From assembly GCA_034231615.1 (NCBI GenBank), contig CM067304.1, positions 19,951,944-20,015,943 on the forward strand: a stretch of DNA of 64,000 nt. The letters are read 5' to 3'. Shown here piece by piece: positions 52,701 through 58,152 of this stretch. The DNA is from Meghimatium bilineatum. Lineage: Eukaryota; Mollusca; Gastropoda; Stylommatophora; Philomycidae. How positions within the stretch are numbered: the stretch's first letter is position 1; every line of letters begins with the position of its first letter. The notes beneath the pieces were generated by a model. That model saw only the letters and a program-made list of their open reading frames with translations, did not search any database and was not told the DNA's origin. Both the position numbers and the translations under genes were made by a program.

Positions 52701-55700
52701 CTTGCACAAAATAGATCTAAATGCCGTTCTAAAATAAAAAAGAGCGCATCATCTTGTGAAAAGAAGAGAAATGCAGCAGCTCAACAGCGGAGAACAGCTA
52801 GAAAGTCACGGATAGACCAAGATCCGTCTACAGTCGTCATTCCATGTCCGAACTGTCCAAGGACATTTACAGCTCAAATAGGGCTCATGAGCCATCTACG
52901 AACTCATAATCAAGGACATAACTAAAATTGAATTTTCAAAAGTGGATGTAACAAATGGTCATCATCACTTGTGATGGACAAACAACAACAGTTCTTTTTT
53001 CATGTTAAGTGTCTTTAGCACCTCTTTATTTGTTTTCTTCTGTTTCCATGATGTTCTCCCTATTCTTCTATATACCCACATCTCAAAGGCATCAATTTTG
53101 TCTTCTAATTGTCTTCCAAAATTTTTTTCAATAAGAGGATAAACAAAAGAATATCCGGATATAGAGCCAAAGGTAGACCAAGAAATGGTGGATATAAAAC
53201 ATTGAGGTAATCTTGAAAAAATAAAGACTTGACGCAACCAAGGCAACACATCTGGCCTTGGAATGACAACTGAGGCTCCCACCCCAACATTTAACAACAA
53301 GTGTGGATTCGATACAAAATCTCCACTCACATATGCATAGGTGTCAACTAGTACGGATTTTTCATATTGATACAGATTTTAGGCCAAACAAACAAACATT
53401 TTTTTTTTAAAAAAAGGTAATTTTGTGTTAAATTTCAGTAAATATTACTAATGCTGACATTTTTATCTCAGATTCACGTATTGTACTTATTGTACTTATT
53501 GATTGGCACACACAAAAAAGAAGTCTTTTGGTGCAGCATACATGTTTTAAAAAAAAAATATATGCATAGAAATTGTAAGAATGATGAATTTATGAAAAAA
53601 CTAGATGACAGATATACATATGGCAGGGGATACATTAGGAGGATGGAACATGGTAAAATACTTCAAGATCTATGTCATGGAGAATTACAGTCTGGGAAAA
53701 ATTCTCAGGGTCTGCCTCTACTTCAGTATAAAGACATAAACAAGCATGATTTTTTTTAGATACAGACATGAATAACCGAATCATGGGAACAGGATGTCAT
53801 GGATCGTGTTGCATGGAGGAGAAAGATCAGGAATCGTATAAAGACAAAGGAGAAAGTAATATAGTTCAAGGGCTGCACTTTTAAAAAGATACAACAGTAC
53901 ATGATGGTACATGTGGGCCTGTTGATGGTACATGTGGGCCTGTGATTCCCTGTACATTCTGTGAAAGACTCATTGTGGCTCAGATTGATCTTGTGAGTCA
54001 CATCCTATGGATCGTAGATTATACACACCTGTTATTTTATTCTAAAAATGTGAACTTTTAGTTCGGCCACACACGACATATTTCAGCTATTGTAGTCCTG
54101 AAGGGGTGTAACAGACCTGACATATTTATTACCCAGCGCTGAATGAAATAATTCGCGTGGAGGCTTGGATTTCGCTTCTGGTTCAAAGATACCGTTTCTC
54201 AATTTTGCGAATTTTATACAGCAGCCAGAGTGTGTGCATTTGCAAGCACAACTCAACATTTTCCATCCTCATATTTTTGTACAAGTCCTATTAGGTTGTC
54301 ATTGTTTTTGACCAGTGCACATTCAATATTTATACAGGTAAGACAATTTCGTTGTTCTTCATGTTAATTTAGTAGGTCTAATATCATTACTTTACATACA
54401 GTGTCAAATTTGTTAGATCATCGTTTACCATAAGAATGTACAAAATAAACCTATTATGCCACGATCAAACACTAGTTTAGCATGTATATCTAGTTAGATC
54501 TCATTTTACTTGTGCAAATATGATCGAAATTAGTTACATTGCGCAATTAGATCATGTAAAAGATTCATTCTTTGTGTAGCATTAACGCTACGAACTTGTT
54601 TTCATGATAATTTTTCTATTCGTGGTCGGCAAATATAAGTCCAAAATAAACCTATTATGCCACCATCAAATACTAGTTTAGCTTGTATATCTAGTTAGAT
54701 CTCATTTTACTTGTGCAAATATGATCGAAATTAGTTACATTGCGCAATTAGATCATGTAAAAGATTCATTCTTTGTGTAGCATTAACGTTACGAACTTGT
54801 CTGCATGATAATTTTTCTATTCGTGGTCGGCAAATATAAGTCCAAAATAAACCTATTATGCCACCATCAAATACTAGTTTAGCTTGTATATCTAGTTAGA
54901 TCTCATTTTACTTGTGCAAATATGATCGAAATTAGTTACATTGCGCATTTAGATCATGTAAAAGATTCATTCTTTGTGTAGCATTAACGTTACGAACTTG
55001 TCTGCATGATAATTTTTCTATTCGTGGTCGGCAAATATAAGTCCAAAATAAACCTATTATGCCACCATCAAATACTAGTTTAGCTTGTATATCTAGTTAG
55101 ATCTCATTTTACTTGTGCAAATATGATCGAAATTAGTTACATTGCGCATTTAGATCATGTAAAAGATTCATTCTTTGTGTAGCATTAACGTTACGAACTT
55201 GTCTGCATGATAATTTTTCTATTCGTGGTCGGCAAATATAAGTCCAAAATAAACCTATTATGCCACCATCAAACACTAGTTTAGCATGTATATCTAGTTA
55301 GATCTCATTTTACTTGTGCAAATATTAGAACATTATTAGAAGGAAGAACATTATCTAAGAAAGATAAAAGGATGCAGAAGAAACCACGGTCCTGTAGCTT
55401 ATATCAAAGTGACCTGGCTAGTATTTATGGGATACATATCATGGACGATAGTGAAACAAAACATTCAACCACATTGTGTGTCAAGTGTGTAATGCGAAAT
55501 CATAAACTCAAAATCAACAAGGATAGTAAATCTCTAGCTCGAGCCAAATTGATAGCTACTAACAGTGCCCACATCTGGATGGATTTTAATCCTAACCTAA
55601 CTGTTTTAGAATGTTCCGTGTGTAGTCATCATCAAAGTATGAACTGTGGCAGCATAAAAAGAAAGAGCGATTTTGATAATTCTGATAATGATCATGATGT

Positions 55701-58152: not shown

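Follow-up and report, generated by a model that had tools for sequence, protein, structure and literature searches.

What is a run of motifs resembling the N-terminal part of RAG1, the enzyme by which vertebrates rearrange their antibody genes, doing in a putative intron of a gastropod gene? The question is raised by positions 55326-56410 of a 64,000-nucleotide stretch of the Meghimatium bilineatum genome (GCA_034231615.1, contig CM067304.1, positions 19,951,944 to 20,015,943 of the forward strand; hereafter the window). A first-pass annotation, made from the letters alone, took these positions for the fossil of a RAG1-like (RAG1L) transposon inside a BCR/ABR gene. We conclude, with a probability of roughly 0.95, that they belong to a Chapaev element, a cut-and-paste DNA transposon, in a non-autonomous copy shortened by internal deletions; it is of the kind that makes 4-bp duplications and not of Chapaev3. 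The observation behind the annotation was partly confirmed and its interpretation partly supported.

The whole element spans 54024-56734 (2,711 bp, plus strand). It starts with CACACCTG, ends with CAGGTGTG and lies between two copies of TATA, at 54020-54023 and 56735-56738, recognized as target-site duplications by comparison of copies. Its limits are sharp, as copies stop aligning past both ends; this was seen when L009, a locus of the same genome with a 6,656-bp copy, was compared with nine other loci carrying long open reading frames (ORFs), and when the window copy was compared with L009 and seven short copies. Twenty-four loci were examined for ends, the window copy (L001) among them, and both ends were present in 17. 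All 17 complete copies are flanked by a perfect 4-bp duplication, with 16 different sequences among them. Their terminal inverted repeats (TIRs) are of the Chapaev type, 5'-CAC and GTG-3': the start reads CACACCTG in 16 copies and CACATCTG in L011, and the end reads CAGGTGTG in all 17. The first-pass annotation had seen no termini like recombination signal sequences (RSSs) in the window, yet CAC...GTG ends are present. At another locus (L010, 595-7226) one family member, with a full-length ORF, is nested in another, and AGTA is duplicated there.

Between its ends the window copy, read throughout on the plus strand, is a shortened version of L009. The 5' terminal region (54024-54438) matches the initial 415 bp of the L009 copy at 97% identity and is followed by a tandem array of 4.4 copies of a 201-bp unit (54441-55325), which is part of the transposon and comprises about nine units in L009. 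Then comes a retained piece of the transposase gene (55341-56407, residues 21-374 of 979) in three frames, without the start codon, the first CxxC and the catalytic core. Frame 1 (55342-55824, residues 21-181, 98% identical to L009) holds most of the zinc-binding region that resembles Chapa and the RAG1 N-terminus, frame 2 (55824-56069) holds residues 182-263 at 96% identity, and frame 3 (56192-56407, 99%) holds residues 303-374 with CKTGGQP and a basic stretch. The 3' terminal region (56406-56734) is joined to this piece through a deletion of about 2.85 kb. In L009 terms, the stretch from the array to element position 2418, where the start codon and first CxxC lie, is gone, and so are positions ~3481-6327 (junction 3480|6328), which hold the catalytic core.

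The limits given in the first-pass annotation nearly equal these breakpoints, the end of the array at 55325 and the jump to the 3' end at ~56406. The motifs it listed are also there: the zinc-binding ones, including IKRKS, in an open frame at 55285-56112 (the window ORF), and CKTGGQP with the basic stretch in a frame at 56165-56407. Its account of how the piece was cut, by a satellite on the left and a LINE (long interspersed nuclear element) on the right, does not hold. The array is internal to the transposon, the element continues on the right to its own terminus at 56734, and of two ORFs tested on that side for the LINE, one matched zf-RVT below threshold (0.078) and the other gave just a weak match of no relevance. 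The piece is short because of deletions inside the element, not because of a LINE and outside sequence. As for the host gene, a RhoGAP exon at 47453-47569 (plus strand, E 1.5e-10) fits BCR/ABR and is the sole part of that gene that was checked.

Both breakpoints are common to all 13 short copies compared (the window, L002-L008 and L030-L034). A second deletion class, with a 4433|6129 junction (within 8 bases in L018) and an overlap of about 10 bp at the junction, was found in L016, L018, L035 and the interrupted outer copy of L010, and has also multiplied. Since many copies have breakpoints in common, the deleted forms multiplied after the deletions arose. The family has at least two multiplied deletion classes and a variable internal array of ~201-bp units, of which complete copies have 2 to 10 by approximate count. 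None of the five TIR words tested occurs inside the 201-bp unit. Even copies that are substitution-free relative to the window copy over ~1.39 kb (L002-L008) differ in array size, with unit numbers of 4, 5, 6 and 8 or more, so the array evolves more quickly than the remainder of the element.

The copies are numerous and young. A search of the genome (1.61 Gb, 32 contigs) with the window ORF, in which 140 of 1,557 first-look candidates were scored, gave at least 154 matches. Among the matches listed, 40 places keep 274-276 of the 276 residues stop-free at 97-100% identity, eight of them, the window included, sharing the top score; at other places the open frame extends further, to as many as 1,001 codons. 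With the array left aside, the window copy shows zero substitutions relative to L002-L008 over 1,391-1,394 bp and 6-12 relative to L030-L034, and the 13 short copies have a mean pairwise distance of 0.37% and a maximum of 0.86%. Seven copies without a substitution relative to the window copy mean that the family moved very recently, and the supposed fossil is instead one member of a very young multicopy family. Because the copies compared were chosen from the top of the match list, they may understate the age of the entire family.

An open frame preserved at 40 places could also mean that the truncated ORF is kept and selected as a functional short protein, such as a zinc-domain repressor, for which deleted P elements provide a precedent. 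We consider this improbable, because the coding piece is split over three frames and has neither start codon nor first CxxC, the long frame loses the phase of the transposase after residue 181, and open frames are to be expected in copies so young.

What the window copy has lost can be read from longer copies in the same genome, which encode a DUF1280 transposase of 959-979 amino acids. Against Pfam, the 1,001-codon frame of L009 matched PF06918 (DUF1280) at E 3.9e-17; otherwise it gave a sub-threshold CDKN3 match only, with no PF12940 and no RING match, and a PDB search with the same frame gave no match. A protein search returned 43 relatives, with DUF1280 tabulated for all 43; those with a species name come from Elysia, Plakobranchus, Littorina and Lineus. 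The available text of PMC3985635 assigns DUF1280 to Chapaev transposases and places them in one clade with RAG1, and that of PMC4079192 gives as Chapaev hallmarks a 3-4-bp target-site duplication, CAC/GTG ends and the motifs C(2)C, LH and H(4)H. These motifs are present in L009 and, apart from gaps and occasional exceptions, across the 44-sequence alignment, and are gone from the window copy with its core; the first-pass annotation was right that the catalytic part is missing there. Among the near-invariant positions of the alignment are D523, D593, C612, C615, H680, H901, H906 and E923, and the motif order points to D523, D593 and E923 as the probable catalytic triad. The modelled core of one relative (P0001) resembles RAG1, BbRAGL and HzTransib, which account for all 49 Foldseek matches with E ≤0.001. 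In seven full-length copies (ORFs of 959-979 amino acids) there are 31 synonymous and 48 non-synonymous changes; the resulting ratio of non-synonymous to synonymous polymorphism (pN/pS), 0.41, suggests some constraint on the transposase. DUF1280 matches in the genome number 71, several of them more divergent and with stops, which suggests that older Chapaev lineages exist beside the young one. A further relative, P0042, has a Chapa zinc domain, a RING finger and a DUF1280 core, the domain order of RAG1; by a simple pattern it is the only one of the 43 relatives with a RING.

How much of this is akin to RAG1? We compared a profile of 17 family N-termini with one of 17 vertebrate RAG1 N-termini picked from 120 listed. 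The two matched with an hhalign probability of 97.5% (E 5.1e-12, score 76.4), against 22.2 for the best of 100 column shuffles, 12.2 for the reversed profile and at most 15.1 for five other RAG1 regions. When the family profile was trimmed to what survives in the window copy, it still matched RAG1 at E 3.2e-7 (score 47.0; best of 100 column shuffles, 18.7). Scored with a RAG1 N-terminal profile, 10 of the 17 N-termini exceeded 16.7 bits, the top score among 5,100 shuffled decoys; L009 reached 20.1 bits and P0012 was highest with 40.0, while P0002 cleared the decoys by just 0.1 bit. The zinc-binding block noted in the first pass is, by these family profiles, homologous to the RAG1 N-terminus, the Chapa zinc domain corresponding to RAG1 residues ~100-187. 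The likeness stands at the level of the family; the window ORF alone is weak, with no Pfam match, an hhalign probability of 12% against RAG1, no hit at E 10 or better among 210 protein-search candidates and only two irrelevant weak matches in the PDB. Other parts of the proposed likeness were not borne out by sequence. The later W..CxxC..KRKS part taken alone is at chance level (hhalign probability 0.9%), and KxGGQP, read as a nonamer-binding motif, scores as chance by sequence profile (10.7; best of 40 shuffles, 14.3). Several fold alignments reach RAG1 residue 392-395, but at a root-mean-square deviation of ~8-11 Å.

The RAG1 likeness might be superficial and the block an ordinary ZAD/zf-AD zinc-finger family. 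Pfam matched zf-AD in 7 of 12 family N-termini (best E 4.5e-6), but it matched RAG1_imp_bd (PF12560) in 10 of the 12 (best E 1e-7). A profile of the 12 N-termini (A2) searched against the PDB found RAG1 first (21wb_A, E 3.5e-9) and full-length RAG1 at residues 100-187 (E 1.3e-5), versus E 0.67 for 7po9_A, which we take to be a ZAD. As the block is, moreover, part of a transposase whose fold is predicted to be RAG1-like, we regard this alternative as highly improbable. The zf-AD domain, Chapa and the RAG1 N-terminus may themselves be kin; a literature search found no paper linking them.

With the N-terminus significantly similar to that of vertebrate RAG1, and with RAGL transposons present in molluscs according to the available text of PMC7204232, a RAG1L transposon that kept only its non-core part had to be considered. 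We rejected it as extremely improbable, on the grounds that full-length copies of the same element carry a DUF1280 core, the duplications are of 4 bp and the copies are nearly identical and hence no fossil. The available text of PMC4411706 gives 5 bp as typical of Transibs. A fuller copy in the same genome, as suggested in the first pass, was indeed found, but it encodes a DUF1280 Chapaev transposase and no ORF of RAG2L size: L009 has no second stop-to-stop ORF of at least 150 codons in 595-7250, a search that did not extend to shorter exons or to RAG2 elsewhere. The genome gave no RAG1 core with either query. The PF12940 profile found nothing, a weak negative as no control genome gave a match, and a shark RAG1 query found four matches, the best at E 0.0027, all of them to residues 290-380, where the RING lies, a weak negative for the core. 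PF12560 found one sub-threshold place with five stops.

Several points weigh against the Chapaev reading or its extension to RAG1. The Chapaev assignment is based on the hallmarks and on the published DUF1280 link. The fold model is that of a relative 48% identical over 69% of the query and not of the genome's own protein. In sequence, the core resembles that of RAG1 at a level close to noise (score 32.2 with an hhalign probability of 6%; best of 40 shuffles, 27.6), and its best PDB profile match is BbRAGL at E 0.42. Taken by itself, the N-terminus of L009 has no Pfam match at E 0.1 to RAG1_imp_bd or to zf-AD. Finally, present activity of the family is something we infer, because all four motif strings checked occur letter for letter in only three of 11 loci (L009, L013 and L014) and L013 ends early.

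A non-autonomous Chapaev copy would be mobilized as follows. Longer relatives would supply a transposase of up to 979 amino acids, with a Chapa zinc domain followed by a DUF1280 RNase H-like DDE core of predicted RAG1/Transib-like fold. This protein would act in trans on the CAC...GTG ends of window-like copies, excising them and inserting them with a 4-bp stagger, and the fragmented coding piece in the window copy would be passenger sequence. It is also possible, if rather doubtful, that we are dealing with a transposon that still moves today and has an almost complete RAG1 plan (RAG1-type zinc N-terminus, helical nonamer-binding-like region and full RAG1-fold core) in a DUF1280 lineage outside RAG1/Transib. 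If so, the N-terminus and the nonamer-binding region would predate the RAG1-Transib split, and an active enzyme would be at hand for testing their role before RAG2 and RSSs.

To our knowledge, the role of the RAG1 N-terminus before it joined RAG1 is not settled. Here a young family carries a homologue of it on a transposase whose predicted fold is RAG1-like, and near-identical deleted copies would serve as natural substrates, so that this role could be tested at the bench. Chapaev elements can also supply RAG1-like motifs in invertebrate introns, and an N-terminal match alone should therefore not be called RAG1L.

Among known systems, the N-RAG-TP of the mollusc Aplysia californica, reportedly due to Panchin and Moroz (2008), is likewise a mobile element with a protein like the RAG1 N-terminus. 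It is compared here by description only (PMC8355894 and PMC2996935, available text), and to place it in the same Chapaev lineage as the window copy would be a guess. With RAG1 and the RAGL transposons (ProtoRAG, TransibSU) the family has a homologous N-terminal zinc region in common and, in the model of a relative, a RAG1-like core fold; it differs in its DUF1280 core without a PF12940 sequence match, in its 4-bp instead of 5-bp duplication, and, in L009, in having neither a second long ORF nor a RING match. Transib, with a 5-bp duplication, has no RAG1 N-terminal region, whereas the family has one. Chapaev3 has the superfamily motifs in common with it, but makes a 3-bp TWA duplication (PMC4079192, available text) in contrast to the varied 4-bp one found here. 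According to Kapitonov and Koonin (PMC4411706), RAG1 and Chapaev have the Chapa domain in common, and two subgroups of Chapaev carry a RING behind it. The available text of that paper and of PMC3985635 already reports Chapaev/DUF1280 to be kin to RAG1, and the family adds a further member to a kind that is known. It agrees with Chapaev, of the CMC group or the wider CMCT group as described in the accessible parts of PMC4079192 and PMC12730594, in its CAC...GTG ends, 4-bp target-site duplication and DDE transposase with C(2)C, LH and H(4)H, and also in its Chapa zinc domain, of which the window copy keeps residue 21 onward only, and its DUF1280 core.
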